From: Planctomycetia bacterium
GTDB taxonomy: Bacteria > Planctomycetota > Planctomycetia > Pirellulales > PNKZ01
Direction: 5' to 3'
DNA length: 64,000 nt
Assembly (NCBI GenBank): GCA_021413845.1
Contig: JAIOPP010000084.1
Span: forward strand, 1-64,000
Part shown: in pieces, positions 2,314 to 50,023 of the stretch
Numbering within the stretch: the stretch's first letter is position 1
Layout: every line of letters begins with the position of its first letter
Translations under genes and position numbers: made by a program
Notes under the pieces: model-generated
The model's input: the letters and a program-made list of their open reading frames with translations, nothing else
Told to the model about the DNA's origin: nothing
Databases searched by the model: none

Positions 2314-2523
2314 TTGGGTGGGAATCGAGCCTAATCGAAGCCACATGAAAGGTCAACGATTCCGCGATTCGCGCCCTACGCCGAATCCGAGAGAGGCATG
2401 CAAGTTACGTCCGAAGCGTCGGCTATGAAAATGCACGGAATTATCTGGAAAAACATATAGACGCCTATAGACTGAGGGAACGGCTGGGGCCTGAGGGGTT
2501 CGCAAAAGAAACAGGAGTTTTAC

Positions 2524-21976: not shown

Positions 21977-23272
21977 ATGATGAAGCCTAGCCGCCGTGAT
22001 TTCTTGACCGTCGGTGCCTTGGCCGGCGTCGGCCTGACGCTCCCTGAGCTTTTCCGATTGGAAAGCGCTCGTGCCGAGAAGAAGAACTATGACTTCTTGG
22101 AAGCCAAGGCGAAGAGTGTCATTCATATCTACTTGCCGGGCGGTTGCGCTCACCAAGAGACGTGGGATCCGAAGCCGTTCTCGCCGATCGAATACCGCGG
22201 CGACTTGAAGCCGATCAAGACGAAGGTCGCCGGGGTCGAGTTCTCGGAGATGATGGTCAAGTCGGCCGACATCGCCGACAAGCTCTGTATCATCCGCTCG
22301 ATGACCCACGGCGAAGCCGCCCACGAACGCGGCACGCACAACATGTTCACCGGTTATCGCCCGAGCCCGGCATTGCAATACCCGAGCTTCGGCAGCGTCG
22401 TGAGCCATGAATACGGCCCGCGCAACAACCTTCCGCCTTACGTCTGCGTTCCGGGTCAGCCGAACGAGTTTGCCGGCACGGGCTACCTGAGCTCGTCGTT
22501 CGCACCGTTCAGCCTCGGTTCTGATCCTGCTCAGGGTGGCTTCCAAGTTCGCGACCTGACCTTGGCGAACGGGGTCGACGACACCCGTTTCGCTCGTCGC
22601 CGCTCGGCACTCGACGCGGTCAACGAATACTTCCATGCCAAGGAAAAGTCCGACGCGATCGACGCGATGGACACCTTCTACGATCGGGCCTACAGCCTGA
22701 TCAGCTCGAAGGAAGCTCGCGAAGCGTTCAATATCAACGCGGAATCGGAAGCCGTTCGGAACGAATACGGCCGCAACGAAGCCGGTCAACGGATGTTGAT
22801 GGCGAAGCGTTTGGTCGGTGCGGGGGTTCGTTTCGTGAGCCTCACATACGGCGGCTGGGATATGCACTCCGGCATCGTCGGCGCGATGAAGCGCCAATTG
22901 CCGATTTTCGATCAAGCCTTCTCGGCCTTGATCACCGATCTCGATCGCAGCGGCTTGCTCGATAGCACGCTCGTCATGGTGAGCAGCGAATTCGGCCGGA
23001 CGCCGAAGATCAACAACACCGCCGGTCGCGACCACTGGCCGAAGGTGTTCAGCGTGGCTCTTGCCGGCGGCGGCGTGAAGAAGGGAGTCGTGTACGGCAC
23101 GTCGAACGCAATTGCCAGCGAACCGGAAGACGATCCGGTCAGCCCGCAAGACTTGGCGACGACCGTTTACAACCAGCTTGGAATCGTGGCCGACAAGGAA
23201 TTGATGGCTCCAGGCGATCGTCCGATCGAAATCATCGACGGCGGCCGGGTCATCAAGGAAATCTTGGTCTAG
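21977..23272 (+). CDS. DUF1501 protein with Tat signal
   Basis: The N-terminus MMKPSRRDFLTVGALAGVG is a twin-arginine signal, so the protein is exported folded. It is 431 residues from ATG 21977, chosen because GGAG at 21964-21967 is nine bases upstream; ATG 21968 is too close to it. DUF1501 belongs to the alkaline-phosphatase/sulfatase-like fold. IHIYLPGGCAHQETWDPKP, MTHGEAAHERGTHNMFTGY and VSSEFGRTPKINNTAGRDHW are the conserved blocks, with several His/Asp/Glu that could hold a metal. The usual sulfatase Cys/Ser maturation motif is not evident. It leads a block of four exported-protein genes. Its substrate is unknown. Confidence 0.92.
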   Translation: MMKPSRRDFLTVGALAGVGLTLPELFRLESARAEKKNYDFLEAKAKSVIHIYLPGGCAHQETWDPKPFSPIEYRGDLKPIKTKVAGVEFSEMMVKSADIADKLCIIRSMTHGEAAHERGTHNMFTGYRPSPALQYPSFGSVVSHEYGPRNNLPPYVCVPGQPNEFAGTGYLSSSFAPFSLGSDPAQGGFQVRDLTLANGVDDTRFARRRSALDAVNEYFHAKEKSDAIDAMDTFYDRAYSLISSKEAREAFNINAESEAVRNEYGRNEAGQRMLMAKRLVGAGVRFVSLTYGGWDMHSGIVGAMKRQLPIFDQAFSALITDLDRSGLLDSTLVMVSSEFGRTPKINNTAGRDHWPKVFSVALAGGGVKKGVVYGTSNAIASEPEDDPVSPQDLATTVYNQLGIVADKELMAPGDRPIEIIDGGRVIKEILV

Positions 23273-23652
23273 GCTGCGGTCCGACGAAGTCTGGTTTGCT
23301 GAGAAGTAGTCGAACAGCTAATCCGCTTTTTACCGCACGAAATCGCGTCTCGAAGGGGCCGAGACTAGACGGATCGTGCGAGCGAAGATTAGTATGATAT
23401 CGGAATGATCCACCCGGTGATGCCTAGGGCTTGCCGGGTGGATCGTTCGTAGAATGGTGTGGTCGCATTTGCGTGCATCTTCGCTTCCGTTCGGTTCGTG
23501 CTGCACCACGATGAGATGACCGCGATGAAATCATCGCGATTCATCTTTGGGTGTGGCGCTTGTTTCGATAGTCCGCGGTCCTTGCTTGCCGCGTTGCATT
23601 GCCTACCCCGATTGTTGCCTTCCCCGGCACGCCCTCCCTCCTGAGGTTTTTC
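23273..23652 (+). other. Gap inside the PSCyt gene block, with a strong hairpin
   Basis: About 380 bases without a convincing gene. Positions 23403-23417 and 23434-23448 form a 15-bp stem (core GATCCACCCGG / CCGGGTGGATC, one G-T pair). No T run follows. It may mark the 3-prime end or a processing site of the DUF1501 message, and a promoter for the next gene could lie after it. Confidence 0.55.
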
Positions 23653-26181
23653 ATGTTTGCCTCGCTCCGTGCTTACGGAATCCGTTTCGTTGCGACGGCC
23701 GTCGTCGTCTGCTGTACCGCGCCGAACTTCGTTTCGGCTGCGAACCCTTCGCTCAGCTCCATCGCACCGAACGGCGGTAAGCGAGGGGGCGATATCGAAG
23801 TGCAAGTGAGCGGCCGGGCGATCTCCGATGCCCCGGAGTTGGTCTTCTATTCGCCCGGCATCAAGGTCAAAAGCATCGAGCAGATTAAAGACAAGGCCGG
23901 CGTGGTGAACGACAACCTCGTCAAGGCGGTGTTGACCCTCGCTCCCGATTGCCGCCTCGGCGGTCATGCGTTCCGAATTCGGACGGCGAGCGGCTTGTCG
24001 GATATGCCGATCTTGTTCAGCGTCGGCGCTCTCGATGTGGTCGAAGAAAAAGAACCGAACAGCGAATTCACCACGCCGCAGGAAATTCCGCTCGGCGTGA
24101 CGATCAACGGCTCGATCGGCAACGAAGACGTCGACTACTTCGTCGTCAACGCGAAGAAGGGCGATCGCATCTCGGCCGAAGTGGAAGGGATTCGCCTGGG
24201 CCGCGCGGCGTTCGACCCTTATCTCGCCATTCTCGACTCGGATCGTTTCGAGTTGGCTCGCAGCGACGACTCGGCCATGGCGTGGTACGACTGCACCTGT
24301 TCGGTCCTTGCTCCGGCCGACGGCAAATACACCGTTCTAGTCCGTGAGAGCACGTTTGTCGGTGGCTCGGTATATCGACTCCACATCGGCAAGTTCCCTC
24401 GCCCGACGGCGATGATTCCCGCCGGCGGCAAGCCGGGCGAAACGCTCGACGTCACGCTGCTCGGCGACCCTTCGGGGCCGATCAAGCAAAAGTATACGGT
24501 CCCCGCGAAGCCGGAGTTCCTCTCGTCGACCTATGCCAAGGACGACAAGGCGACGCCGTTCTTCCCGAAGGATGCCTTGGGTATCGCTCCTTCGCCGCTG
24601 GTGTTTCGGGTCTCGAATTTGAACAACGTGCTGGAAGTCGAACCGAACGACGAGCCTGCCAAGGGGACGACTTGCGAAGCTCCGATCGCGATGAACGGCG
24701 TGATCGAGAAGCCGCGCGACGTCGATTGTTTTCAATTTAAGGGAACGAAGGGACAGGTCTTAGAGATTCGCGTGCATGCCCGCAGTCTCCGCTCGCCGCT
24801 CGACTCCGTGCTGACCGTGTTGCGGCTATCGAACGGCTCGAGCCTAGGCACGAACGACGACTCAGCCGGACCGGATAGTTACCTGCGGGTGAACATCCCG
24901 GCCGACGATGTGTACGTCGTGCAGGTGAAGGACATGCTCGATCAAGGGGGGGCTGACTTCTCATATCGCGTCGAAGTCACGCCGGTCGAACCGAGCGTTG
25001 CGCTGACGTTCGCCGAGAAGATTCAATACGTCGACGTGACGATGCCGGTCGCTAAGGGGAATCGCGGTGCGTTGATGGTCAATGTCCAGCGCATCGGTTG
25101 GAACGGCGATCTGAAACTGGATTTGCAAAACGTACCGAAGGGAATGAAATACGAAACGCTTCCGCTGCTCGGCAATATGACGAACGTGCCGGTTCTGTTC
25201 ACGGCCGCCGACGATGCCCCGGTAGGAGCTTCGACGGTCGGCATGACGGTGAGCCCAACCGATCCGAAGGCCGAGAAGGTAACCGGCTTCGCCAAGCAAA
25301 CGACGATGCTGATTCGGGGCGGCAACAATGCCCCGATCTATACGCAAACGATCCACGGTCTGACGACCGCCGTGATCGAAAAGGTTCCGTTTAAGATCGA
25401 GATCATGGAGCCGAAAGTTCCGCTCGTGAAAAACGGTTCGATGGATCTCAAGGTGCGCGTCGTACGTGCGAAAGACTTCAAAGCGCCGATCGCGATTCGA
25501 ATGCTATTCAATCCGCCGGGCGTGAGTGCTTCGAGTTCGGCGCAGATCGCCGAAGGAAAAGACGAGGGGATCTTGCAAATCACCGCCGGCAGCAATGCCG
25601 AAATCAAAGATTGGAAAATTCTCGTGCTCGGCACGGCGAACGTCGTCAACGGGCCGGTGGAAGTCGCTTCGCAATTCGCGACGTTGAAAATCGGCCAACC
25701 GTTCTTTGATTTCGCGATGAAGCCGAGTGCCGGCGAGCAAGGGAAGCCGGTCTCGTTCGTCGCTCAGATTACGAACAACGTCGAATTCACGGGCAAGGCG
25801 AAAGTGCAACTGGTCGGTCTTCCGGCGGAAGCGGTCTGCCCTGAGATCGAGATCGGGAAGGATGCCACCGAGGCGATCTTCAACGTGACCACGACGACGA
25901 AGACCCCGCCGGGTCGGCACAAGGCGATCTATGTGAATTTGGTCGTGATGCAAAACGGCGAGCCCGTCGCGCATACGTTCGGCCCCGGCGAGATCCGGGT
26001 CGATGCTCCGCTGCCGCCGAAGGTAACGGCCAAGCCTGCCGCTGCGGCGGTCGTTGCTAAGCCGCAGCCGGCAGCCGTCGTCGCGAAACCTGCCGCTCCG
26101 AGAGCATTGAGCCGGTTGGAAACCTTGCGTCTGCAGAAGAATCAAGATGCCGCGGCACCTGCCACGGGTAATAATAAGTAG
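23653..26181 (+). CDS. Exported PPC-domain protein (842 residues)
   Basis: ATG 23653 gives a clear signal peptide (residues 1-30, ending FVSAANP). The frame is open to 23599 but upstream residues are not signal-like. The first domain (PSLSSIAPNGGKRGGDIEVQ) is an IPT/TIG-like Ig fold. At least two bacterial pre-peptidase C-terminal-type domains follow, marked by EKEPNSEFTTPQEIPLGVTI... DVDYFVVNAKKGDRI and EVEPNDEPAKGTTC... DVDCFQFKGTKGQVLEIRV. Further beta-rich domains come next, and the C-terminus is Ala/Pro/Lys-rich (about residues 790-842). No protease domain is present. It is probably a large extracytoplasmic binding or scaffold protein working with its neighbours. Confidence 0.88.
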   Translation: MFASLRAYGIRFVATAVVVCCTAPNFVSAANPSLSSIAPNGGKRGGDIEVQVSGRAISDAPELVFYSPGIKVKSIEQIKDKAGVVNDNLVKAVLTLAPDCRLGGHAFRIRTASGLSDMPILFSVGALDVVEEKEPNSEFTTPQEIPLGVTINGSIGNEDVDYFVVNAKKGDRISAEVEGIRLGRAAFDPYLAILDSDRFELARSDDSAMAWYDCTCSVLAPADGKYTVLVRESTFVGGSVYRLHIGKFPRPTAMIPAGGKPGETLDVTLLGDPSGPIKQKYTVPAKPEFLSSTYAKDDKATPFFPKDALGIAPSPLVFRVSNLNNVLEVEPNDEPAKGTTCEAPIAMNGVIEKPRDVDCFQFKGTKGQVLEIRVHARSLRSPLDSVLTVLRLSNGSSLGTNDDSAGPDSYLRVNIPADDVYVVQVKDMLDQGGADFSYRVEVTPVEPSVALTFAEKIQYVDVTMPVAKGNRGALMVNVQRIGWNGDLKLDLQNVPKGMKYETLPLLGNMTNVPVLFTAADDAPVGASTVGMTVSPTDPKAEKVTGFAKQTTMLIRGGNNAPIYTQTIHGLTTAVIEKVPFKIEIMEPKVPLVKNGSMDLKVRVVRAKDFKAPIAIRMLFNPPGVSASSSAQIAEGKDEGILQITAGSNAEIKDWKILVLGTANVVNGPVEVASQFATLKIGQPFFDFAMKPSAGEQGKPVSFVAQITNNVEFTGKAKVQLVGLPAEAVCPEIEIGKDATEAIFNVTTTTKTPPGRHKAIYVNLVVMQNGEPVAHTFGPGEIRVDAPLPPKVTAKPAAAAVVAKPQPAAVVAKPAAPRALSRLETLRLQKNQDAAAPATGNNK

Positions 26182-26222
26182 TCGAAGTCGGCCGGTGGTT
26201 TTGAGTTTCGTTTCGGACACGC

Positions 26223-28718
26223 ATGAGAGAGGTTATCGCCGTGAGTCGCTTCGCAAAACCGTTTATCGCCTCGTCGATCTTGGCGATCGTCGCCGGATTC
26301 GCTTCGCCGCTTACGACCATCGCCGCTCCGGCCGCTGCGGCGAACGGATCGGACGCCAAGGCCATCGTGAAGATCGAGGTGTTTCCTCCCGATGTGAATC
26401 TTTCGACGAAGCGCGATAGCCAGCGCTACCTCGTCATGGTCACGCGTGCCGACGGCGTGACGCAGGATGTGACGAACGAAGCGAAAGTGTCGATTGCCGA
26501 CAAGACGTTCGCCCGGGTCGATCAACAGACGCTCTATCCCGTCGCCGACGGCACGACGACGCTCGACGTCACCTACGGCACGCAGAAGCTGCAAGTTCCG
26601 GTCGTGGTGAAAGACGCCGCTGCCGATCGGCCGGTCAGTTTTCATCTCGATGTGATGCCGGTCTTCATGCGTTCGGGCTGCAATACCGGGAGTTGCCATG
26701 GTGCGGCTCGCGGTAAAGACGGCTTCATGCTCTCTCTATTCGGCTATGATCCCAAGGGGGATCACATGCGGATCACGCACGAACTCGGCAATCGCCGGAT
26801 CAACCTCGGCATGCCTGCCGAAAGCCTGTTGTTGGAAAAGAACGACGGCTCGGTTCCGCACACCGGCGGCAAGCGATTCGATCGGACGAGCGCTTACTAT
26901 CAAGTGATTCTCGAATGGCTCAACAACGGCGCCCCGCTCGACGAAGGGGAAGTCGTCAAGGTGGTGCGGGTCGATCTCTATCCGAAGATCGCCGTGCTGG
27001 AAGGCTCCGGCACGACGCAGCAGATGATCGCCCGAGCGGTTTACGCCGACGGCACCGATCGCGATATCACGAACCTCGCCGTGTTCCTTACGAACAACGA
27101 CAACTCGGCTCCGATCAACGAAAACGGCTTAGTCACCGCCGCGAATCGGGGAGAGGCGTTCGTCATGGCTCGCTTCGATACGCACACGGTCGGCAGCCAG
27201 TTACTCGTCTTGCCGAAAGATGTGAAATATACCGAACCGGCTGCCAAGCCGGCGAACTACATCGACGACCTCGTCGGCGCGAAGCTGAAGAAGCTGCGCA
27301 TCATTCCGAGCGAACTCTGCACCGACGAAGTCTTCCTGCGCCGCGTGACCCTCGACATCACGGGCCTGCTCCCGACCGAAGAAGAGTTCGCCGCTTTCTC
27401 GAACGACAAAGATCCCTCGAAGCGCACGAAGCTTGTCGACCGTTTGTTGGAGCGGAAAGAGTTCGCCGAAATTTGGGCGATGAAATGGGCCGAAGTCTTG
27501 AAGGTGCGTACCAATCAAAACGTGGTGAGCACTAAGGCCGCCGTGGCGTATGCCGACTGGCTGACCGCGCAGATTTCCGACAACGTGCCGCTCGATAAGA
27601 TGGTTCGCGATCTGCTCTCGACGAGCGGCAGCGCTTTCAAGAGCCCGGCCGTGAACTACTATCAAGTCGAGCAAGACTTGCTGAAGACCGCTGAAAACAC
27701 GGCTCAGGTGTTCTTCGGAATCCGGACGCAATGCGCCCAGTGCCACAACCATCCGTTCGATCGCTGGACAATGGACGACTACTACAGCTTTGCGGCGTTC
27801 TTCGCGCAAGTCGGTCGCAAGCCGACGGAAGACTATCGCGATATCGTGATCTACAACCGCGCCGGCGGCGAGACGTCGAACCCGGTGACGAAGAAGCAAA
27901 TGACTCCGAAGTTCCTCGGCGGCGTGGTTCCTGAAATCAAGCCGGGCGAAGATCGCCGCGTGGTGCTCGCCAACTGGCTGACCTCGACCGACAACAAGTT
28001 CTTTGCGCCGAACGTCGCCAACCGCATCTGGGACCACTTCTTCGGCCTCGGCATCGTCGACCCGGTCGACGACATTCGCGTGAGCAACCCGGCGACGAAC
28101 CCGGAACTGCTGCAAGCGCTCGGCGATAAGCTCGTCGAATACAAATACGACTTCAAGCGGCTCGTTCGCGATATCTGCCTCTCGAACACCTATCAGCGTT
28201 CGGGCACCGTGAACGAAAGCAATGCCGGAGACGGGAAGAACTTCTCGCATTCGACCGTCCGTCGCGTGCGGGCCGAGAGCTTGCTCGACATCATCACCCA
28301 AGCGACCGAAACGAAAGAGAAGTTCCAACGTTTGCCGCTCGGAGCCCGCGCCGTGCAGATCGCCGATGGAAGCACCTCGAATTACTTCCTCGATACGTTC
28401 GGGCGCTCGAACCGGTTGACCGTCTGTGCCGACGACGTGAAGACCGATCCGTCGCTTTCGCAATCGTTGCACTTGCTGAACGGCCCGACGATCGAATCGA
28501 AGATCTCGAACGGCGGTTCGATCGATCGCTGGTTGAAGGCAGGGAAGACCCCGTCCGAGATCATCGATACGATTTTCATTCGCTGCTTGACGCGCAAGCC
28601 GACCGCCGAAGAGAAAGCCAAGCTCTTGGCGATCATGCCGGAAAAGAATCCGCAAAAGGAATTGACGGACGTCTATTGGGCCGTGCTGAATTCGCGCGAG
28701 TTCGTGTTCAACCACTAG
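26223..28718 (+). CDS. Exported PSCyt2 (DUF1549) / PSD1 (DUF1553) protein
   Basis: This 831-residue protein has a signal peptide (to about residue 40), an Ig-like domain of the BIG2 type (about 48-130), and CNTGSCHG (C153, C158, H159), a CX4CH haem-like site. DUF1549 runs from about 340 and contains CAQCHNHPFDRW near residue 503, a second CXXCH-type site. DUF1553 fills the C-terminus (DNKFFAPNVANRIWDHFFG to LTRKPTAEEK). Haem attachment is a prediction. The gene starts 41 bases after the PPC gene. GTG 26241, with GAGAGG nine bases upstream, is an alternative start that shortens the signal peptide to a more usual size. Confidence 0.92.
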   Translation: MREVIAVSRFAKPFIASSILAIVAGFASPLTTIAAPAAAANGSDAKAIVKIEVFPPDVNLSTKRDSQRYLVMVTRADGVTQDVTNEAKVSIADKTFARVDQQTLYPVADGTTTLDVTYGTQKLQVPVVVKDAAADRPVSFHLDVMPVFMRSGCNTGSCHGAARGKDGFMLSLFGYDPKGDHMRITHELGNRRINLGMPAESLLLEKNDGSVPHTGGKRFDRTSAYYQVILEWLNNGAPLDEGEVVKVVRVDLYPKIAVLEGSGTTQQMIARAVYADGTDRDITNLAVFLTNNDNSAPINENGLVTAANRGEAFVMARFDTHTVGSQLLVLPKDVKYTEPAAKPANYIDDLVGAKLKKLRIIPSELCTDEVFLRRVTLDITGLLPTEEEFAAFSNDKDPSKRTKLVDRLLERKEFAEIWAMKWAEVLKVRTNQNVVSTKAAVAYADWLTAQISDNVPLDKMVRDLLSTSGSAFKSPAVNYYQVEQDLLKTAENTAQVFFGIRTQCAQCHNHPFDRWTMDDYYSFAAFFAQVGRKPTEDYRDIVIYNRAGGETSNPVTKKQMTPKFLGGVVPEIKPGEDRRVVLANWLTSTDNKFFAPNVANRIWDHFFGLGIVDPVDDIRVSNPATNPELLQALGDKLVEYKYDFKRLVRDICLSNTYQRSGTVNESNAGDGKNFSHSTVRRVRAESLLDIITQATETKEKFQRLPLGARAVQIADGSTSNYFLDTFGRSNRLTVCADDVKTDPSLSQSLHLLNGPTIESKISNGGSIDRWLKAGKTPSEIIDTIFIRCLTRKPTAEEKAKLLAIMPEKNPQKELTDVYWAVLNSREFVFNH

Positions 28719-28734
28719 TTCCCGTCCCGTTCGC

Positions 28735-28782
28735 GACTTGCCGGCGCAGCGATCGAAGTCTTGATCGTTGCGCCGGCAAGTC
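28735..28782 (+). other. 20-bp intercistronic hairpin
   Basis: GACTTGCCGGCGCA (28735-28748) and its exact complement (28769-28782), extended by GCGATC/GATCGT with one G-T pair, make a 20-bp stem with an eight-base loop. It begins 16 bases after the PSCyt2/PSD1 stop and lies 53 bases before the next start. No T run follows. It is likely a processing or stability element that sets relative expression of the two genes. Confidence 0.6.
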
Positions 28783-28834
28783 GGCCGTTCCTTCCTACTT
28801 CGCAAGTTCGTCGACTCTCGTTCGAGTAATTTTT

Positions 28835-31126
28835 ATGCGTATCGCTTTGCGCTCGGTGTCGTTCGTTCCCGCGGTCGGTTTTCGCGCCGGGATGCTGCTC
28901 GCCGTCGTAGCCTGCACCGGTGTCGCGCTCGCGGCCGATCAGAAGCCTGCCGACCCGAAGGCTCCCGACGCCAAGGGGCCGAAGATCACTTACGACGAAC
29001 ACGTTCAGCAGATCTTTCGCGAGCATTGCTACACCTGCCACAACCAAAACGAGTCGAAGAGCGATTTAGCCCTTGATAGCTACACGCGCACGATGGCAGG
29101 TGGTGCGGGTGGCGAGTGCGTCATTCCCGGCGATCTCGAAAGCTCGCGGCTCTATGCGTTGGTCGCCCACATCGAATCGCCGAAGATGCCCCCGGCGCAA
29201 GACAAGATCGCCGAGGCGAAGCTCACGCTCATCAAGCAATGGATTCTCGGCGGTGCGCTGGAGAATGCCGGCTCGAAAGCCAAGATCAAACCGAAGGTCG
29301 AGTTGAAGGCCGCCACGACGGCCGGTAACAAGCCGAACGGTCCGGCGGCGATGCCCGAGAAATTCCGTCGTCAGCCGTTCGTCGTTGCGACGCGCCCCGG
29401 CTCGTCGACCGGGATCGCAGCGAGCCCTTGGGCGCCGCTGATCGCCGTGGCCGGTCAGAAGCAAATCATGTTGCACAACAGCGACACCGGCGCGCTGCTG
29501 ACGATCTTGGCGTATCCCGAAGGAATTCCGCACATCTTGAAGTTCAGCCGCGACGGCTCCGTGTTGCTCGCCGGCGGCGGGCGGGGCGGATCGTCGGGCA
29601 AGGTCGTATTGTTCAAAGTGAAGACCGGCGAGCGGATCACCGAAGTCGGCGATGAGCTCGACGTCGTACTGGCCGCCGACGTCAGCAGCGATCTGTCGCT
29701 CGTCGCACTCGGCGGGCCGAAGAAAATGGTGCGGGTCTTCTCCGTTGCCGACGGCACGTTGCAATATGAGATGAAGAAGCACACCGATTGGATCTATGCC
29801 GTCGAGTTCAGCCCCGACGGCGTCTTGCTCGCCTCGTCGGACCGGAGCGCGGGCCTGATGATTTGGGAATCCGACGGCGGTCGTGAATACCAGAACCTCA
29901 CCGGACACACGGCGGGCATCACCGATCCGAGTTGGCGGGCCGACTCGAACATCTTGGCAAGCGTGAGCGAAGACGGCTCGCTTCGCCTGTGGGAAATGGA
30001 AAACGGCAAGCAAGTGAAGACCTGGGTTGCCAACAACGGGGGCTCGCTCGCAGTCGAGTTTGCGCCGAACGGCCAAATCGTCACGGCGGGGCGCGACAAG
30101 ACGTGCAAAGTTTGGGACCTCGACGGCAAGCTTCTCGCCACGAGCGAAGCGATGCCCGAGATGGTGATGGACGCGGTACTGTCGTACGACGGCAAGCGGA
30201 TCATCGCCGGCGATTGGGCGGGCAACGGCCGATTTTTCGATGCAGTGACCGGCAAGCCGGCGGGCAATCTGTTGCTCAACCCGCTGCCGCTCGAGCAACG
30301 GGTGTCGTACACGGCGCAACTCGCTTCGGAAGCGGAGAAGCTGGCCGTTGCGGCGAAGACCTCGGCGGAGAATGCCGGCAAGAATGCCGAAGCCGCCGCT
30401 GCCGGGGTCGCCAAGGCAAACGCTTCGGCGAACGAAGCGGTTGCGGAAGTGAAGCGGCTCGAAGCGTTGCGGCCGGAGCTCGATCGGCAAACTCCGGTCA
30501 AGCAAGCCGCGGTGAATACGGCTCAACAAAAGGTAACCGCGCTGCGTCGGCAACAGGCGGACGTGAAGGGGGCGGAAGCCAAGGCCGTCGCTCAGGCCAA
30601 GCAAAAGGCCGACGCTTCGACCGCGGCCGCAGACGCCGTGAAGAAGATCGAAGCGGAAGTCGCCAAGCTCACGGCTGAGAAGAAGGAAAAGGAAATTCCG
30701 CCGGCAGCGAAGCGGCTGGATGCCGCTAAAGCCGATGCCGCGGCCAAGACCGCACAAACGACCGAAGCGGCGAAGGCCCTCACCGACGCGCAAGCGAAGG
30801 CCAAAAAGCATGGCGAAGATCTCGCCGTCGCCGAGAAGGCGATCGTGGATCTCAACGCCGATTTCGAGGCGCATCGCAAAGCGATCGGCACGGCAGCCAC
30901 GACGCTGAACGCTTTGAAGCCGCAGATCAAGCCGCGGCAAGATGCGATCGCTCCGGCGATCAAGGCGAAAGAAGCCGCCGACAAATACTATGCCGAGCAA
31001 CAAGCCCTCGCGAAGACGGCAGACGACGCCGCTAAGGCCGCGAAGCAGATCGCCGAGCAAGCAGTGGCCGATAAAGCCGAGTACGATAAGGCAGCCAATC
31101 CGCAGCAAGCCAACGCCGCGAAATAG
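28835..31126 (+). CDS. Exported PSCyt1 cytochrome c-like / WD40 / coiled-coil protein
   Basis: ATG 28835 gives a 763-residue protein with a signal peptide (to about residue 34, ending ALAADQ). The PSCyt1-type domain has EHCYTCHNQNESKSDLALD, a CXXCH haem site (C65, C68, H69), and SPKMPP, whose Met is a possible sixth ligand. A WD40 propeller of about six or seven blades spans roughly residues 170-490 (for example HTDWIYAVEFSPDGVLLASS). The last 270 residues are a long Ala/Lys/Glu-rich coiled coil (AEKLAVAAKTSAENAGKNAE onward). The combination suggests a redox-active scaffold in the periplasm or at the surface. It is the last gene of the block and precedes a strong terminator. Confidence 0.9.
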   Translation: MRIALRSVSFVPAVGFRAGMLLAVVACTGVALAADQKPADPKAPDAKGPKITYDEHVQQIFREHCYTCHNQNESKSDLALDSYTRTMAGGAGGECVIPGDLESSRLYALVAHIESPKMPPAQDKIAEAKLTLIKQWILGGALENAGSKAKIKPKVELKAATTAGNKPNGPAAMPEKFRRQPFVVATRPGSSTGIAASPWAPLIAVAGQKQIMLHNSDTGALLTILAYPEGIPHILKFSRDGSVLLAGGGRGGSSGKVVLFKVKTGERITEVGDELDVVLAADVSSDLSLVALGGPKKMVRVFSVADGTLQYEMKKHTDWIYAVEFSPDGVLLASSDRSAGLMIWESDGGREYQNLTGHTAGITDPSWRADSNILASVSEDGSLRLWEMENGKQVKTWVANNGGSLAVEFAPNGQIVTAGRDKTCKVWDLDGKLLATSEAMPEMVMDAVLSYDGKRIIAGDWAGNGRFFDAVTGKPAGNLLLNPLPLEQRVSYTAQLASEAEKLAVAAKTSAENAGKNAEAAAAGVAKANASANEAVAEVKRLEALRPELDRQTPVKQAAVNTAQQKVTALRRQQADVKGAEAKAVAQAKQKADASTAAADAVKKIEAEVAKLTAEKKEKEIPPAAKRLDAAKADAAAKTAQTTEAAKALTDAQAKAKKHGEDLAVAEKAIVDLNADFEAHRKAIGTAATTLNALKPQIKPRQDAIAPAIKAKEAADKYYAEQQALAKTADDAAKAAKQIAEQAVADKAEYDKAANPQQANAAK

Positions 31127-31189
31127 CCCGGACGCCGGCGTTGCCGGATGTGGCGTGGCTGTGCTGCCGGCTCAGCTTTTTAACTCTTC

Positions 31190-31229
31190 AAGGCCCTCGA
31201 TCCTATCGGATCGAGGGCCTTTTCTTTTC
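31190..31229 (+). terminator. Intrinsic terminator closing the PSCyt gene block
   Basis: A 14-bp stem (31190-31203 AAGGCCCTCGATCC with 31208-31221) and a four-base loop are followed by TTTTCTTTT. It lies 63 bases after the stop of the WD40 gene and ends the block cleanly. Confidence 0.93.
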
Positions 31230-31279
31230 GCATAGCCCGCACACTGCGCATCTGAACGCCAGAATCGTCTTTTTGGATG

Positions 31280-31341
31280 ACTTTGCCGGTTGTGGTGAGT
31301 TGGAAAACTTTGCCGATTGTATCGATTGCCCCAAGTTTTCC
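31280..31341. repeat. Direct and inverted repeats upstream of the TolC-like gene
   Basis: ACTTTGCCGRTTGT occurs at 31280-31293 and 31307-31320, one mismatch, 27 bases apart. The second copy overlaps an inverted repeat, GGAAAACTT (31302-31310) and AAGTTTTCC (31333-31341). They lie about 170-230 bases before the lipoprotein start in a gap that has no gene. They may be operator half-sites; no match to a known motif was made. Confidence 0.45.
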
Positions 31342-31509
31342 GGCCGGCGTTCCGATAACAAGGCTAACGCATTCTCCGCCGGGGGGCGCAGGGTCGACGC
31401 AGCGCGTCGGTCCTGGAGATGCGGAACAGGACGATTCGTGCCGTCGCTCGGTTTCGGCGTGCTCGATCGTCTCCTAAAGTTCCTCGTTTCACATAGGACG
31501 CGACCTCCC

Positions 31510-33900
31510 ATGAAACGGCAAGCTCGCCAGGTGTTGGTATCCGTGACGTTGCTCTCGATGCTCGTCACCGGCTGTTCACCGACCCGACCGTTTTACTTCT
31601 TCGACGACGGCAACCTTTCACACTATAAGGGTGCCGCGACCGAGATCGAGTATCCCGATGTGCAAACGACGATGTTGGAGGACGTGGCGCAGGCGCTACC
31701 GCCGCTGACCGTCGCCAACAACGACCCGCGTGAGATCTGGGATCTCACGTTGGAAGAAGCCATGCAGAACTCGATGGCGAACAGCAAAGTGCTGCGAACG
31801 TTAGGCGGCACGCCCGTCACGTCGAGCAACATTCAAGTCGCCTCGCTCAACAACGCTCGATTGCTGCTCGGGGCAGATAACGCCTCGACGGTTTATAACC
31901 CGGCCTTGCGTGAAAGCGATCCGCGCTTCGGCACCGAAGCCGCTTTGAGCGCGTTCGACGCGCAATTGTCGAGTAGCTTGTTCTGGAACCACAACGATCG
32001 CCCGATCAACTTGCGGCAAGACTTGCAAGTGTTCTCGCGCAGCGTGTTCATGCAAGATACGGCCGCCTTCACGGGCCAGATCTCGAAGATCGCCGCCGAC
32101 GGCAGCACGTTCTACGCTCGCCAAGGTACGAACTACGAATGGAATAACAACCCGTCCAACCAGTTTCCGAGCATCTACACGGCGACGTTGGAAGCGGAGT
32201 TCAAGCATCCGTTGTTGCAAGGTGCCGGCGTCGATTTCAATCGTATCGCGGGACCGAACTCGACCTCGGGCGTGTATACCGGCGTGGTCATCGCTCGTAT
32301 CAATACGGATATCGCTCTCGCCGACTTCGAAGCGGGCATTCGCAACCTCGTGAACGACGTCGAAAACGCGTACTGGAACTTGTACTTCGCTTATCGTCGG
32401 CTCGATGCCAACGTGGTCGGCCGCGACAGCTCGTTGCAAACGTGGCGCAAAGTACACGCGATGGCGCAAGCCGGTTCGGCCGACGCTGCACAAGAAGCCC
32501 AAGCTCGCGAACAATACTTCCTCTTCCGCGGCAACGTGGAAGCGGCCCTCAGCGATATGTACTCGGCCGAGAGCGCCCTCCGCTACCTCATGGGCTTGTC
32601 CGCCAGCGACGGCCGACTGATCCGTCCGGCCGACGAACCGACGACGGCGAAGGTCGACTTCGAGTGGGCCGGCGTGCATCAAGAAGCGTTGGGTCGCTCG
32701 GCCGAATTGCGTCGCCAACGTTGGGTCATCAAGCGACGTGAGATGGAGCTCATCGCTTCGAAGAACTTCTTGCTCCCGCGTCTCGATGCCGATGCCATCT
32801 ATCGCTTCCGCGGCCTCGGCGACGACTTGATCTCCGCTAACGGCGGCGGCAAGGGACCGTTCAACAACGCTTGGCAGAGCCTCCTCGGCGGCAACTACCA
32901 AGAGTGGCAGATGGGTTTCAACTTCAACATGCCGCTCGGGTTCCGTCAGGCTCTCGCCGGTGTTCGCAACGCTCAACTGCAACTCGCTCGCGAACGGGCC
33001 GTGCTCGACGACATGGAGCTCGAAGTGTCGCACTTGCTCGCCGAAGCGATTCGCTTCCAAGACCGGACCTATATGTTGAGCCAAACCAACTTCAATCGTC
33101 GTGCCGCTGCAATCCGCCAAGTGCAGGCCGTGCAGCAGAACTACGAAGTCGGTCGGATCACGCTCGACCAGTTGCTCGACGCTCAACGTCGCTTGGCCGA
33201 TGCCGAGTCGAGCTACTTCCAATCGCTCTCGGATTACAACCGTGCGATCGCCGCGGTGCATTACCGCAAGGGTTCGCTCTTGGAATACAACGCCGTACAC
33301 TTGGCGGAAGGCCCCTGGGCCAGCAAAGCCTACTTCGACGCCGAAGAGCGTGCTCGGGCTCGGGATGCCGGTTTGTTCATGAACTACGGCTTCACTCGCC
33401 CGGGCGTCTTCAGCCAAGGCCCGATCGCTCAAGAGCAAGACGGCGGCAACTTCATCAACGGTGAAACCGTGGAAGGGGTCGAAGAAGGGACGATCATCAA
33501 CGATGGGTCCGCAGGGCCGCAAGTGCCGACGATCGCTCCGGCTCAAGAAGGGGGCAGCCTGCCGATGGTCGTCCCGCCGAGCACGATCCCACCGAGCCTG
33601 ACGCCGCCGGCGATCCCGAGCCCTGCCCCGGCCGGTAAAGCTCCGGGACCGAAAGCCCTGCCGATGGGCCGCTCGGAAGGTCGCTCCGCGTCGTACGACA
33701 TGAACGAGTACGGCACGCCGAAGTTGCGAGATTCCGGTCGCACTTTCAGCACGGCCGGCGGCGAGCTACAACAAGAGCCGTCCGTCAGCGATCATCCGAC
33801 CGAGCTTTTAGAAAGCCGCACGCGTAATGAAAGTCGGAAAAGTCGTACGGCTGCTGGAATTGATCGGTCATTTACAAGCGGGCCGCGGCTCGAACGCTGA
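31510..33900 (+). CDS. TolC-family outer membrane lipoprotein
   Basis: ATG 31510 starts a lipoprotein signal (MLVTGCSP, lipidated Cys at residue 22). The 796-residue chain has the two repeated helical parts of TolC-type exporters: WDLTLEEAMQNS near the start, LADFEAGIRNLVNDVENAYWNLYFAYRRLD, then the second half with VRNAQLQLARERAVLDDMEL and YEVGRITLDQLLDAQRRLADAES. After the TolC part (about residue 610) there is a tail of some 180 residues rich in Pro, Gly and Glu, unusual for the family. No RND or ABC partner is adjacent. The final 74 bases overlap the start of the regulator gene in another frame. Confidence 0.9.
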   Translation: MKRQARQVLVSVTLLSMLVTGCSPTRPFYFFDDGNLSHYKGAATEIEYPDVQTTMLEDVAQALPPLTVANNDPREIWDLTLEEAMQNSMANSKVLRTLGGTPVTSSNIQVASLNNARLLLGADNASTVYNPALRESDPRFGTEAALSAFDAQLSSSLFWNHNDRPINLRQDLQVFSRSVFMQDTAAFTGQISKIAADGSTFYARQGTNYEWNNNPSNQFPSIYTATLEAEFKHPLLQGAGVDFNRIAGPNSTSGVYTGVVIARINTDIALADFEAGIRNLVNDVENAYWNLYFAYRRLDANVVGRDSSLQTWRKVHAMAQAGSADAAQEAQAREQYFLFRGNVEAALSDMYSAESALRYLMGLSASDGRLIRPADEPTTAKVDFEWAGVHQEALGRSAELRRQRWVIKRREMELIASKNFLLPRLDADAIYRFRGLGDDLISANGGGKGPFNNAWQSLLGGNYQEWQMGFNFNMPLGFRQALAGVRNAQLQLARERAVLDDMELEVSHLLAEAIRFQDRTYMLSQTNFNRRAAAIRQVQAVQQNYEVGRITLDQLLDAQRRLADAESSYFQSLSDYNRAIAAVHYRKGSLLEYNAVHLAEGPWASKAYFDAEERARARDAGLFMNYGFTRPGVFSQGPIAQEQDGGNFINGETVEGVEEGTIINDGSAGPQVPTIAPAQEGGSLPMVVPPSTIPPSLTPPAIPSPAPAGKAPGPKALPMGRSEGRSASYDMNEYGTPKLRDSGRTFSTAGGELQQEPSVSDHPTELLESRTRNESRKSRTAAGIDRSFTSGPRLER

Positions 33901-34798
33901 GTCGCTGGCCCGAGAGCTCGGCGTAGCGTCGCGAACGATCTTTCGCGATCTGGATACGCTGAAGAAAGCCGGCGTGCCGCTGGTTTACGAAGAGTCGGAA
34001 CAGCGCTACCGCATTCCGACGAACTACTACCTTCCTCCGACGAACTTCACGCCGCAGGAAGCACTCGCCCTGCTCGTGCTCTGTTATCAGCTCGGCGATC
34101 GCTCGGGGCTGCCGTTTCAAACTTCGGCCCGTCAGGCGGCGCTCAAACTCGAAAGCAATCTGCCGTCGAAGTTGCGAGCGTATGTGCATGACCTGGCGGA
34201 AGCGGTGCGCATTCGCTTGCCGCAGTCGGGGCGAACCGAAGGGCACGAGTCGACGTATCTCGAATTGCTCGACGCCGTCGGCTCGCATCGGGCCGTGCGG
34301 ATCTCGTACGGCAGCTTAAGCGAGCAAAGCGAGATCACGACGAAGCTGCTGCCATATCAATTGCTGTTCAGTCGGCGAAGTTGGTACGTCGTAGGGCGCT
34401 CGAGCCTGCATCGCGAAGTGAGGATGTTCAATCTCACGCGCATCAAGAAGCTGGAAAGCTTGGAAGACAAGTTTCGCGTTCCGGCCCGCTTTAATATGGA
34501 GCGGTTCCTGCGCAACGCGTGGCATCTGATTCCGGAGCCGGGCCCTGATCGGCAAGTGTTGATTCGCTTCGAGCCGATGGTCGCGCACAACGTCGCCGAA
34601 GTCCTCTGGCACAAGACGCAGACGATCGAGTGGCGCGACGACGGCCGGATCGACTTTCGCGCACTGGTATCGGGCCTGCACGAAATCGCCTGGTGGGTGC
34701 TCGGCTACGGCGATCAAGCCGAAGTGATCGAGCCGCCGGAACTGCGCGAGATCGTGCGAGACCGAGCCCGTAAGATGTGCGCGAAGTACGACGCATAG
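33827..34798 (+). CDS. HTH and WYL-domain transcriptional regulator
   Basis: The 323-residue protein begins with a DeoR/HTH_11-type winged helix (VVRLLELIGHLQAGRGSNAE, then ELGVASRTIFRDLDTLKKAG) and continues with a WYL domain from about residue 150 (AVRISYGSLSEQSEITTKLLPYQL... WYVVGRSSLHREVRMFNLTRI). WYL domains bind nucleic acid or nucleotides and control the HTH. The start at ATG 33827 is needed because the first helix begins directly after it. This places its first 74 bases inside the TolC-like gene, in another frame, so translation may be coupled. Targets are unknown; the TolC-like gene is the obvious candidate. Confidence 0.88.
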   Translation: MKVGKVVRLLELIGHLQAGRGSNAESLARELGVASRTIFRDLDTLKKAGVPLVYEESEQRYRIPTNYYLPPTNFTPQEALALLVLCYQLGDRSGLPFQTSARQAALKLESNLPSKLRAYVHDLAEAVRIRLPQSGRTEGHESTYLELLDAVGSHRAVRISYGSLSEQSEITTKLLPYQLLFSRRSWYVVGRSSLHREVRMFNLTRIKKLESLEDKFRVPARFNMERFLRNAWHLIPEPGPDRQVLIRFEPMVAHNVAEVLWHKTQTIEWRDDGRIDFRALVSGLHEIAWWVLGYGDQAEVIEPPELREIVRDRARKMCAKYDA

Positions 34799-40236: not shown

Positions 40237-41028
40237 AGTTGTCTTCCTTCGTCGTTCGTCTCCGGCTTCCGGTAAGGCTTACTTGCACTAACCTTGAGTA
40301 AACGCCGTGTGGTTATTTCAACGGCGAGAAATCCGGCGACAACGGACTCGTTCCCGACCGCAGGGTCGGGCCCAAGTAGCAGGCCAATCCTTCAATGTCA
40401 CTCTACGCGCAAGTTAGTATGAGTCAAGCTACTAGGGCGACGGGAGTCGTTTTTAGCGGGGTTTTTCGACGAACCCCCTCTTACAGGCTTCTGAAATCCA
40501 CCAGACTGCCAAGTTTCTTGTTTTCGTTCAATACGGTTTGGTCGAGGCTTAACGTCTTCCGGCAGAAGTGTTTACTCTACATGCGCGGATGAAAGGGATG
40601 TGTGGATTAAATCGACATGAATATGTCGCCGTTTTATGCGCCAAACGTGGGGGTGTCGTCGATGAAGGCCGATGCGCGAGTGTCGTCAATCGGATAAGTG
40701 CGTCGTTGTGACGGAACTCGATGGTCCGGTCGGTTGCTCGGCTCCGGTATTGCGTCGCTCTGGTCGGCCGTCGTATTCGGCATTCATCATTCGCAGTAGA
40801 AGTCACGTGCCGACGACCCAAGGTTCGCCGTGCGATCGGCGCTTCCTTACGATTTTTCAAGTTCGAAGATCTTGGTGGGCCGCCATTGCCGCAGGCGAAA
40901 ACGGAGAATGCAAATCGCCGCTTGCGAGCGGAAGGAGCCTGCCTATAATTCAGCGGCTAGTCCGTCGCGCATTCGCGCTTCGTCGTGCAAGCCGCGTCTT
41001 GCAGGGAAACGATTGCAAGGAAAAGTGC
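40237..41028. other. Intergenic region between csrA and nuoI
   Basis: Nearly 800 bases with no convincing gene on either strand: the short frames present lack ribosome sites and recognisable products. It holds the csrA promoter on the minus side and a good promoter for nuoI at its right end. GGGGTT/AACCCC near 40459-40478 can form a small hairpin. Confidence 0.6.
40922..40949 (+). promoter_or_regulatory. Likely sigma-70 promoter for the nuo operon
   Basis: TTGCGA (40922-40927), 16 bases, then TATAAT (40944-40949) fits a sigma-70 promoter, with a perfect -10. It lies about 80 bases before the nuoI start. This is a pattern match only. Confidence 0.5.
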
Positions 41029-41562
41029 ATGCGTCAGTGGTTTCGAGACGTCTTCGACGCCGTATTCACCGTAGCTCAAGGGCTATGGATTACGATGCGG
41101 TATTGGGTTAATTCGTACGACCCGGCGCGTAAGACTTTCACCGAGCACTTCGAATATCCCGAGCTTCCGGTGCCGGTGGCGCCACGCTATCGGGGCTTTC
41201 ATCGCTACGATCTCACGACCTGCATCTCTTGCGATCAATGTGCGAAGGCGTGCCCGGTCGATTGCATTTATATCGGTAAAGAGCGGGTCGAAGGAGGCAA
41301 GGGCTTCCAAATCACCGGCTTCACGATCGACTATTCGAAGTGCATGTTCTGCGCCTTGTGCGTCGAGCCGTGTCCGGTCGATTGCATCTTCATGGGTGCC
41401 ACGCACGACTTGAGTTGCTACAGTCGCGATGGCTGCATCGTCGACTTCTCTCGCTTGCCGACCGAAGTAGCCTGGGGACGTGCCACGTTGAATCCAACGG
41501 CCGTAGCCCAATCGAAGGTAATCGAATCGCCTGTTCACGGCGGCCCGAACCAAGTCAGCTAG
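41029..41562 (+). CDS. nuoI: NADH-quinone oxidoreductase subunit I
   Basis: This 177-residue subunit carries two 4Fe-4S ferredoxin motifs, CISCDQCAKACPVDC and CMFCALCVEPCPVDC (clusters N6a and N6b), which pass electrons toward subunit B. ATG 41029 has AAGGA eight bases upstream; the longer open frame is not family-like. It opens the operon, whereas in the common gene order it sits between nuoH and nuoJ. Confidence 0.95.
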   Translation: MRQWFRDVFDAVFTVAQGLWITMRYWVNSYDPARKTFTEHFEYPELPVPVAPRYRGFHRYDLTTCISCDQCAKACPVDCIYIGKERVEGGKGFQITGFTIDYSKCMFCALCVEPCPVDCIFMGATHDLSCYSRDGCIVDFSRLPTEVAWGRATLNPTAVAQSKVIESPVHGGPNQVS

Positions 41563-41607
41563 CGAAGCCAAGTCAGCGAGCGAACTCCTGCCGCGAAAGT
41601 TGCCGCC

Positions 41608-42069
41608 ATGTCGACAAATCGATCCGAGTCGCTTGGCCCCGCGGCGGAACGAAAGCTGTTTACGATCGATGGCGCAAACGCCGCGCTACCGTTGGTGCGA
41701 GCGATCGTGCAAGACGTGGTAGCCCTATCGCACGAGATGGTCGATCGCCGCGAACGCTTGATTTCGCTCCGTTCAGGCCGAACGAGCGAGCGGCAAGACG
41801 TGTACTCCGAGGAATTGGCCCACGTCGAGGAAGAACTCGAGCGCAGTAGAGCTAGGCTCTACGAATATGCCGATGAGCTGCGTGCGCTAGGCGTGGAATT
41901 GAAAGATGGCCTGATCGGGCTCGTCGATTTTCCTTCCCTCCATGAAGACCGAGTCGTGTACTTGTGCTGGAAGTTGGACGAGCCGGAAGTCGCCTACTGG
42001 CACGAACTCGATTCCGGCTTCTCCGGCCGCCGCTCGTTGGCCGACTTCGCTGCGGCCGATCATAACTAA
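41608..42069 (+). CDS. DUF2203 family protein inside the nuo operon
   Basis: The 153-residue protein follows the DUF2203 pattern: KLFTIDGANAALPLVRAIV at the start, a long central helix pair (EELAHVEEELERSRARLYEY) and GLIGLVDFPS... VVYLCWKLDEPEVAYWHEL at the end. It is cytoplasmic by sequence and of unknown function. It starts 45 bases after nuoI and precedes nuoA by 306 bases, so it may be co-transcribed. Nothing directly ties it to complex I. Confidence 0.85.
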   Translation: MSTNRSESLGPAAERKLFTIDGANAALPLVRAIVQDVVALSHEMVDRRERLISLRSGRTSERQDVYSEELAHVEEELERSRARLYEYADELRALGVELKDGLIGLVDFPSLHEDRVVYLCWKLDEPEVAYWHELDSGFSGRRSLADFAAADHN

Positions 42070-42375
42070 GTCGGTCTTGCCGAGTCGCCCATTGGGCCGT
42101 TGTCGAATGGGCCGTTTCGACTGGCGCGAACCGCACGATTACACGTTCGTAAGTTCGATCGGGCAAGCCTGCGCGATCGATCGTATTCGGCGAGCGTCCG
42201 CGGTTTTCGAGCGGCGTTTCTCCGACCTCGCCGGCTTGCAAACGGCCCGGTCTCTTCTACAATGCCCGGATTGTTATTTTCGTCCGGTGCCGGCATCGCC
42301 CGACCGGCGCATGTCTGATCGCTTCACGTTCCGTTCGTTCCCGGCAATCCCGACTCGTTTCCGAAACGGCAAGTT
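42070..42375. other. Gap between DUF2203 gene and nuoA
   Basis: About 306 bases. I see no gene here; frames present have no family match. No terminator was found, so transcription may continue through from nuoI. Confidence 0.55.
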
Positions 42376-43020
42376 ATGTCACCGACTCTCGTCGCCGCTT
42401 ACTTGGCATTGTTTTTCGCGATCGGGGCGATGTTCCTGTTCACGAACTTGCTGATCGGCCGATTTCTACGACCCAAGAATCCGAACGAAGAGAAGCTTTC
42501 CGTATATGAATGCGGCGAGCCGACGATCGGGTCGAGCTTCGTGCAGTTCGATCTCCGCTTCTATGTGATCGCGTTGTTGTTCATCATCTTCGATGTGGAA
42601 GTCGCATTCTTCTTTCCTTGGGCCGCGGCATTCGGCAAGTCGACGCATCTCACCGATCCGAAGTTCGCAGTCGTTTCCAATGTTTCGGAAACGGACTCCA
42701 GCGTGAAAGTTCCGGTTCACTTGACACCGAAGGCCGCGCAAGTTCAGCGCGAGCTCGGTGTAGCGAATCCTACGGTGCCGGACTCGGCCGCGAGTGTCGC
42801 CAAGAACGAAGAGGTGGTTCGCGGGAGCGCCGCGTTGCTCGCGAAGACCTCGATCGGGGATATTCTCGTCTTCTTCGCCGTGCTCATGGTCGGCTTCGCT
42901 TACGTTTGGAGTCGCGGCGACTTGGATTGGGTTCGCGCACTTCAAGACGATCATGCGCAAACGGCGCAGCTGCGCGCGGTCGGAGTCGACGAAGGGGCCG
43001 ATTCGGTGTTGGCGGGCTGA
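42376..43020 (+). CDS. nuoA: NADH-quinone oxidoreductase subunit A, with insert
   Basis: This 214-residue membrane subunit has the conserved KLSVYECGEPTIGSSFVQFDLRFY loop and FDVEVAFFFPWA in the second membrane helix. The family is normally about 120-150 residues with three helices. Here about 75 mostly polar residues (roughly 88-162) are inserted before the third helix (IGDILVFFAVLMVGFAYVW). The gap to nuoC is 90 bases and the expected nuoB is missing. Confidence 0.92.
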   Translation: MSPTLVAAYLALFFAIGAMFLFTNLLIGRFLRPKNPNEEKLSVYECGEPTIGSSFVQFDLRFYVIALLFIIFDVEVAFFFPWAAAFGKSTHLTDPKFAVVSNVSETDSSVKVPVHLTPKAAQVQRELGVANPTVPDSAASVAKNEEVVRGSAALLAKTSIGDILVFFAVLMVGFAYVWSRGDLDWVRALQDDHAQTAQLRAVGVDEGADSVLAG

Positions 43021-43110
43021 TTGGTCGAGTCGGATGGATGCGAAGTTCAAGCGAGGTCGGTTGTCGAGCGGTAGCGTTTTAACGTCACTTGTGAAAAAGA
43101 TCACAATCGT

Positions 43111-43641: not shown

Positions 43642-43698
43642 GACGGAAGTTTGAGGCCAACGGGCAGCCGACAACTGACACCGAACAACTGACGAAAC

Positions 43699-44904: not shown

Positions 44905-45049
44905 TCGCGTCGACGACGCAGTTTTACGGTTTGGGAAAATCAAGTTCGGGTACTTGTGTACTAGCAGCGCCGTGTGCCATATTTCTTGCTCTTATCACCT
45001 TCGTCGGACGGCTCGAAAGCGCTCCCGAAACGCGGTTTAGGAACCTCTC

Positions 45050-46279: not shown

Positions 46280-46280
46280 G

Positions 46281-46865: not shown

Positions 46866-46954
46866 TTCCGGTCGCCTATGGGCTGGAGGTTAGTGGTCTT
46901 GGGGAAGAGTTCGTTTCGGTTGGGTTGTGTGTCGGTTGAGAAGTTGAGTCGCTT

Positions 46955-47299: not shown

Positions 47300-47360
47300 G
47301 TCGGCGGCTTCTTGGTGCGATTCCGTTGCGTTTGAAATAGTACAGTTAGGCGAAGTTCGT

Positions 47361-49934: not shown

Positions 49935-50023
49935 CGATCACGCCGCAAAAGTAATGATGCCGCCGGACAAGACTCTCGGTAACTCAAAGAACACAGAACT
50001 ATCTCGGAACAGACGAGTTTGAC

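Follow-up and report, generated by a model that had tools for sequence, protein, structure and literature searches.

A conserved four-gene cassette encoding DUF1501, PPC, PSD1 and PSCyt1-WD40 proteins in Planctomycetota and Verrucomicrobiota

Do four genes that lie in a row on a planctomycete contig, and whose products carry DUF1501, PPC, PSCyt2/PSD1 and PSCyt1-WD40 domains, belong to one system, and what might that system do? An earlier note on this DNA had suggested a single exported system with redox and scaffold parts. Having analysed the window (the whole stretch of 64,000 nucleotides presented here) together with its relatives, we conclude that the four genes very probably form one functional unit. 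Its mechanism is a more tentative matter, and to the reading that we prefer, a periplasmic or surface complex in which a metal hydrolase is paired with three c-type haems, we assign a probability of roughly 0.4.

Layout of the locus

Open reading frames and Pfam matches bear out four plus-strand genes in a row with the domains that had been claimed for them (Table 1). The E-values are 2e-115 for DUF1501, 4e-16 for PPC, 1e-49 for PSCyt2, 9e-38 for PSD1, 2e-12 for PSCyt1 and 2e-23 for WD40, and all of these matches score above cut-off. Likewise, motif searches place C65-C68-H69 of the WD40 protein exactly as claimed, the CXXCH expected at about C503 of the DUF1549 (PSD1) protein at C504, and the CX4CH site at C153 of the PSD1 protein; neither motif occurs in the DUF1501 or the PPC protein. 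What had been described as a terminator after the WD40 gene is a terminator-like hairpin with a 14-pair stem and a T-rich tail (TTCTTTTC), the longest stem among 23 sites found, where 14.2 sites are expected in shuffles. The gap between the DUF1501 and PPC genes measures 380 bp in the window versus a median of 139 in 18 relatives.

Export of all four products, also claimed, is predicted from a strict twin-arginine pattern in 18/19 DUF1501 orthologues and from hydrophobic N-termini in most orthologues (19/19 for DUF1501, 18/19 for PPC, 19/20 for PSD1 and 18/18 for WD40), the latter scored by hydropathy and not by signal-peptide prediction. For the window's own DUF1501 protein, Pfam's TAT_signal model scores below cut-off. 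To call the proteins planctomycete-specific, on the other hand, was too strong, given that two control genomes out of 14, those of Caulobacter and Deinobacterium, contain DUF1501 and that the cassette is also found in Verrucomicrobiota.

Table 1. Positions in the window of the cassette, its domains and motifs, and other features observed nearby
Feature	Position	Strand	Basis or remark
DUF1501 gene	21977-23272	+	ORF; alternative ATG at 21968
PPC protein gene	23653-26181	+	ORF opening at 23599
PSCyt2/PSD1 gene	26223-28718	+	ORF; Pfam
PSCyt1-like region of PSD1 protein, residues 133-245	26619-26957	+	Profile comparison, invariant residues
CX4CH C153-C158-H159 of PSD1 protein	26679-26699	+	Motif search
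Invariant H213 of PSD1 protein	26859-26861	+	Alignment
PSCyt2 domain of PSD1 protein, residues 347-530	27261-27812	+	Pfam
CXXCH C504-C507-H508, within PSCyt2 domain	27732-27746	+	Motif search
PSD1 domain, residues 578-803	27954-28631	+	Pfam
PSCyt1-WD40 gene	28835-31126	+	ORF opening at 28676
PSCyt1 domain of WD40 protein	29027-29197	+	Pfam
CXXCH C65-C68-H69 of WD40 protein	29027-29041	+	Motif search
Invariant M118 of WD40 protein	29186-29188	+	Alignment
Terminator-like hairpin, 3' of last gene	31190-31221	+	14-pair stem, then T-rich
TolC-type outer-membrane protein gene	31141-33900	+	Adjoins cassette; kept only in near relatives
WYL regulator gene	33827-34798	+	Beside TolC-type gene; the two stay together in near relatives only
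Complex I (NADH dehydrogenase) gene run	40672-53632	+	About 10 kb downstream of cassette
Cobalamin riboswitch	2083-2326	-	82 bits
DUF1559 protein	2524-3687	+	Pilin-like N-terminal methylation motif

Conservation and edges of the gene set

Gene order across relatives had been set beforehand as the check on the single-system idea, and the adjacency of the four genes survived it. With the PSD1 protein as query, 26 of 30 genomes searched (the window's own included) returned an orthologue-level best match, and four (G009, G017, G023 and G025) returned none. Leaving the window's own genome aside, 24 of 25 matches showed 49 to 79% identity, one of them being a fragment; the match in G008, at 43%, was accepted as an orthologue because its gene set is in order, and the remaining matches reached at most 47% among the matches listed. 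Of 20 informative loci from the same taxonomic order, 19 preserve both the order and the strand of all four genes. Informative here, as in the wider phylum, means uncut by a contig end, so that L051, L052, L053 and L054 were set aside; G006 is represented by a fragment alone (L025, with PSD1 and WD40). In the sole split, L036 of G014, DUF1501 and PPC are still paired elsewhere (L198). A DUF1501 gene truncated by the end of its contig (L050, L148, some named loci) was scored as present, and the non-orthologous loci L055, L056 and L183-L185 were left out of the counts.

The same arrangement extends through the phylum. When a best PSD1 match of at least 989 bits is taken to mark a cassette genome, 40 of 246 sampled Planctomycetota genomes qualify, namely, 16/16 from the window's own genome, order and class and 24/230 others. 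Among 37 additional loci, 27 hold all four genes in order, five are cut by contig ends and were set aside (L155, L158, L164, L169 and L175), and five are not intact, which gives 27/32 informative loci. In the latter five, DUF1501 is absent from the 1.1 kb upstream of the PPC gene (L153, counted as an exception), the WD40 gene is absent from the 7.5 to 7.7 kb downstream (L157 and L162, genus g166), or DUF1501 and PPC lie away from PSD1, with a PPC orthologue elsewhere that has no DUF1501 beside it (L176 and L181, genus g31).

A scan of named genomes returned a best 80 of loci that are nearly all labelled Planctomycetota or Verrucomicrobiota and that, being the best matches, lean towards close relatives. 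Here 52 of 61 informative loci, defined by at least 4 kb upstream and at least 1.5 kb downstream of PSD1 (19/80 were set aside), carry all four genes in order, counting L113, in which a second DUF1501 lies in between. Six of the nine exceptions are Verrucomicrobiota (L107, L122, L128, L129, L133 and L136) in which the WD40 gene is inverted and lies, divergently, just upstream of DUF1501 and the other two. As for the rest, the WD40 gene is absent from the available sequence of L120 and from the 1.6 kb downstream in L112, and the contig of L117 starts at PPC. The locus sets overlap, since some named and G-handle loci look like the same records, and we have not summed their counts.

In a PSD1 tree of the best 80 named proteins, the window's own protein and ten paralogues from its genome, the 81 orthologues form one group with a support of 97, within which ten Verrucomicrobiota rows group together; the tree was made by a quick method and has long paralogue branches. 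The distance matrices of the proteins agree (Mantel r of 0.84 to 0.95, 18 rows), as expected for joint vertical inheritance, which alone is no proof of interaction. The named set includes MAGs with doubtful names: the labels of L083, L117 and L134 (Kuenenia, Bacteroidales and Akkermansia muciniphila) clash with the placement of their PSD1 proteins among Planctomycetaceae, Gemmataceae or outside other Akkermansiaceae, and these MAGs are probably misnamed or contaminated.

The edges of the set are hard. Clustering of 457 flanking ORFs from the best 80 named loci (of which 47 extend 3 kb or more upstream and 55 as far downstream) yielded no family in more than six loci, and the window's own neighbour genes are mostly gone from the neighbourhood outside near relatives. 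DUF6807 lies upstream in 5/26 loci, a TolC gene accompanies the cassette in three (one partial) and a WYL gene in two, mostly within the same genus or family, and all three were rejected as further members because they are too rare beside the cassette. Since the flanks are not kept and no flank family recurs, the conserved unit consists of these four genes.

Could the genes be neighbours by descent only, with no shared function? The 380-bp DUF1501-PPC gap and the splits in a few lineages would fit this. However, the flanks are lost while the four genes are kept down to about 50% PSD1 identity, and separate rearrangements still keep the set together, so that this reading is already strongly disfavoured and, in our estimate, highly improbable. 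The single-system idea gains instead from a gene order kept across two phyla, from the hard edges and from further four-gene sets in the window's own genome, and the persistence of the cassette in both Planctomycetota and Verrucomicrobiota points to a shared job. Full adjacency is nevertheless not indispensable, as the splits in L036, L153, L157, L162, L176 and L181 and the WD40-less L120 indicate.

Predicted chemistry of the four products

The DUF1501 protein matches PF07394 over residues 48-433 with 386.5 bits (cut-off, 27). A Foldseek search with its structure model, which is of low confidence (pLDDT 56), returned LtaP at an E-value of 1.5e-5, with the alkaline phosphatase superfamily matching along residues 45-434, as well as sulfatases. 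With the same model, VIA returned ENPP and PafA at a Z score of 14.8 and an rmsd of 3.3 to 4.8 over 225 to 262 aligned residues. Identity among the fold matches listed is 10 to 16%. A sequence search of solved structures gave nothing useful for this protein (2rk5 at an E-value of 0.009). H114, H119, D298, H300, E341, D355 and H356 are invariant in 64/64 DUF1501 proteins of named relatives from the best-80 set, in which D67 is found in 63/63 and E64 in 61/63, and these histidines and acidic residues are candidate metal ligands. The earlier description of the protein as hydrolase-like thus agrees with the fold match, and we regard DUF1501 as a candidate metal hydrolase with an alkaline-phosphatase-superfamily fold. 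The PPC protein has a hydrophobic N-terminus and two PPC domains that a solved-structure search identifies as collagenase-like, and it is a candidate for the part that binds or positions the substrate.

Conceivably, such an enzyme could serve carbohydrate processing, with DUF1501 stripping phosphate or sulfate or cleaving another sugar ester, the cytochromes oxidising the freed sugars and paralogues serving different glycans. Passages of a 2017 paper on freshwater Verrucomicrobia (PMC5615132) describe PSCyt2 and PSCyt3 genes that adjoin two unknown families, call the functions unknown and suggest carbohydrate use; its reports of carbohydrate-binding domains in a subset of PSCyt proteins and of neighbouring sulfatases are in line with this, as are the structural match of DUF1501 to sulfatases, three sub-threshold sulfatase-profile matches that fall within DUF1501 genes, and the collagenase-like PPC domains. 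Yet no glycoside hydrolase or sulfatase recurs at the cassette flanks of the best 80 named loci. In the own genome, a sulfatase above cut-off lies within 10 kb of only 2 of 69 PSD1 genes (C115 and C69), and a sulfatase partnership was rejected for this genome on that count. Moreover, genomes poor in PSD1 matches (seven in G022 and nine in G015) retain the cassette, a pattern that a core job fits better than glycan breadth. We consider carbohydrate processing possible but rather unlikely.

The PSD1 protein scores 169.7 bits for PF07583 (cut-off, 29.8) and 130.6 bits for PF07587 (cut-off, 28.5). It is assigned two Ig-type domains: in its model (pLDDT 80), residues 246-333 give an Ig-type match and residues 48-130 form another beta domain, and the structure matches found with it are confined to the Ig domain and similar beta parts; for the helical PSCyt2/PSD1 core, the model and sequence searches made returned no covering solved structure. 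C153, C158, H159, H213, C504, C507 and H508 are invariant in 80/80 PSD1 proteins of the best 80 named loci. The N-terminal region that holds the first four of these (residues 133-245) has no Pfam match, but aligns with PSCyt1 with an hhalign probability of 82.9 and an E-value of 9e-6, compared with 0.4 for a control region. Judged by this profile comparison, the region is probably a relative of PSCyt1 with a CX4CH in place of the CXXCH haem motif. It offers no residue to match the distal Met of PSCyt1, and its H213 pairs in the alignment with H112 of the WD40 protein rather than with M118, so one might guess at a His/His ligation of the predicted CX4CH haem. In nine Verrucomicrobiota loci, comprising all six with an inverted WD40 gene and L095, L120 and L123, the N-terminus of the PSD1 protein bears an additional canonical site of PSCyt1 type.

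PSCyt1 of the WD40 protein (PF07635) scores 48.2 bits against a cut-off of 22. C65, C68, H69 and M118 are invariant in 70/70 WD40 proteins of the best-80 set, and H112 is found in 69/70; M118 would be the distal haem ligand. Together with the invariant CXXCH and CX4CH of PSD1, this invariant CXXCH is consistent with the haem-binding-type partners that had been predicted. The coiled-coil scaffold proposed alongside them did not hold up: the coiled-coil-like tail after the propeller ranges from 17 to 454 residues in relatives of the same order and is essentially absent in 3/23 (L034, L038 and L043), and we rejected it as a core feature for that reason. The conserved part of the WD40 protein is PSCyt1 plus the propeller.

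The loss of this tail bears on the proposal that the cassette is a machine for structure or trafficking in the planctomycete cell envelope or internal membranes, with the haem and hydrolase-like parts serving assembly and not metabolism. Its most scaffold-like part is the least conserved one, and the invariant candidate haem and metal residues suggest chemistry, which makes this proposal improbable to our minds even though Ig domains and propellers are common scaffold parts and DUF1501-containing genomic clusters have been tied to PVC species with internal membranes (Kamneva et al. 2012, as cited in passages of PMC4452313 and PMC5122149).

Three predicted haem sites in two exported proteins could also belong to a system that oxidises Fe(II) or another metal, or that carries out some other extracellular electron transfer, DUF1501 then being an accessory. 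The sole solved-structure sequence match of PSCyt1 is the haem domain of FoxE (5mab), called an iron oxidase in the literature, at an E-value of 0.0011. The architectures differ, however, and the aligned stretch, of about 64 residues, may reflect a shared haem fold alone. Porin-cytochrome electron-transfer systems of the MtrCAB/PioAB type have an outer-membrane porin beside a multihaem cytochrome. In contrast, Pfam finds no porin family among the four genes, no family recurs at their edges, and the predicted haem sites number only three; the TolC-type gene next to the cassette accompanies it in three near relatives only (one partial). This alternative has, in our view, a slim chance of being right.

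In the mechanism that we prefer, the four products would assemble as one periplasmic or surface-attached complex. DUF1501 would fold in the cytoplasm, be exported by Tat and act as a metal-dependent hydrolase of the alkaline phosphatase/sulfatase superfamily, on a substrate that the PPC/Ig protein would bind or position. The PSD1 protein would carry two c-type haems, a CX4CH haem, possibly with His/His ligation, and a CXXCH haem, and could relay electrons between the site of reaction and the WD40 protein's PSCyt1 haem, whose ligands would be His and Met; the propeller of the WD40 protein would be the docking site for partners. From the PSCyt1 haem, electrons might pass to the respiratory chain. 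The gene unit with its edges and conservation, the invariance of the candidate ligands and the alkaline-phosphatase-type fold match come straight from the computation; complex formation, haem occupancy and ligation, the direction of electron flow and any coupling of hydrolysis to oxidation we infer. Several points count against this mechanism: a fold shared by a model of pLDDT 56 by itself shows no function of DUF1501, a gap of 380 bp follows its gene, no solved structure covered the helical PSCyt2/PSD1 core in the searches made, splits of the set occur, and the CX4CH region has no equivalent of the distal Met.

Known systems and paralogues

The PSCyt2 and PSD1 domains were first described in Rhodopirellula baltica, according to passages of PMC5615132 and PMC2754498, the latter of which places a PSD1/PSC2 gene of that organism near a stress-induced ECF sigma factor. 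The window's own genome has 14 matches to PF07638 and none on the window's contig, and an adjacent ECF sigma factor was rejected on that count. PMC5587647, in the relevant passages, lists DUF1501 for genes in the neighbourhood of planctomycete WD40 genes, so that DUF1501 clusters and the WD40-DUF1501 neighbourhood, as these sources present them, were known before. The cassette shares with them the clustering of DUF1501; the four-gene order, edges, orthology, taxonomic reach and haem sites do not feature in the passages concerned. DUF1501-DUF1800 pairs beside chitin synthase genes of Proteobacteria resemble the cassette in having a Tat-exported DUF1501 in a conserved gene group, but the partners differ, and the passages in question (PMC5122149) make no mention of PPC, PSD1 or WD40. 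The alkaline phosphatase superfamily (ENPP, PafA, LtaP/LtaS and sulfatases) has the fold of the DUF1501 model in common, at the low identity given above for the matches listed. Searches of the open literature returned no description of the four-gene cassette, part of which may be in Kamneva et al. 2012, a paper represented here by those that cite it. With regard to essentiality, term searches in passages of two PVC transposon papers (PMC10632474 and PMC12283558) did not bring up the cassette families.

The closest likeness is to the PSD1-DUF1501 pairs of Planctomycetota and Verrucomicrobiota, which draw on the same Pfam families. In the window's own genome there are 69 PSD1 genes, alongside 128 matches to DUF1501 and 67 to PSCyt1. 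No more than 5.5 kb from 64/69 PSD1 genes lies a DUF1501 gene with the same orientation (55 downstream and 9 upstream), where by our own arithmetic density would predict about 7/69. In the pairs, DUF1501 is directly downstream of PSD1 (55/69). The cassette, in contrast, has DUF1501 upstream, PPC in between and PSCyt1-WD40 after, so that no DUF1501 directly follows its PSD1 gene, and its PSD1 protein is set apart from the common pairs by Ig domains and the CX4CH site. The same genome holds other four-gene sets, one in the window's order (L204) and one with WD40 first (L203), a locus with weaker, permuted matches to all four (L215), and several loci with DUF1501, PPC and PSD1 only. The window cassette thus represents, in widely conserved form, a larger class, which stands beside the commoner two-gene form with PSD1 ahead of DUF1501.

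DUF1501, PSCyt1/2 and PSD1 fill planctomycete genomes, with dozens of copies per genome, and the cassette offers a handle on their function: usually there is one clear orthologue per genome (a second high-scoring copy occurs in G134, G165 and G221), it is present in PSD1-poor hosts, its partners are fixed, and the residues of haem and metal type are invariant. Compared with dozens of possibly redundant copies, a four-gene cassette makes the question of function directly testable. Tentatively, and at well below even odds, it may be a core machine, as yet undescribed, that Planctomycetota share with many Verrucomicrobiota: an enzyme of four exported proteins in which alkaline-phosphatase-type hydrolysis is coupled to c-type haem electron transfer, and as such the best-conserved member of a duplicated cassette family and a key to the PSCyt/PSD1/DUF1501 expansion.

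Haem-assembly proteins of PF01578 have two matches in the own genome. A COX1 match is present in 39/40 cassette genomes versus 153/206 others (Fisher p of 0.0006, ignoring kinship); the link to aerobic respiration that this suggests is weak and may reflect kinship only. In G134, the top-scoring PSD1 copy no longer has DUF1501 and PPC beside it, and a second, complete DUF1501-PPC-PSD1-WD40 set lies elsewhere in that genome (L202, G134:C1:1297000-1316000). Finally, the PPC paralogue of L203 (G000:C1:38987-41599) reads through one TAA and is either a decayed copy or the product of a sequence error.
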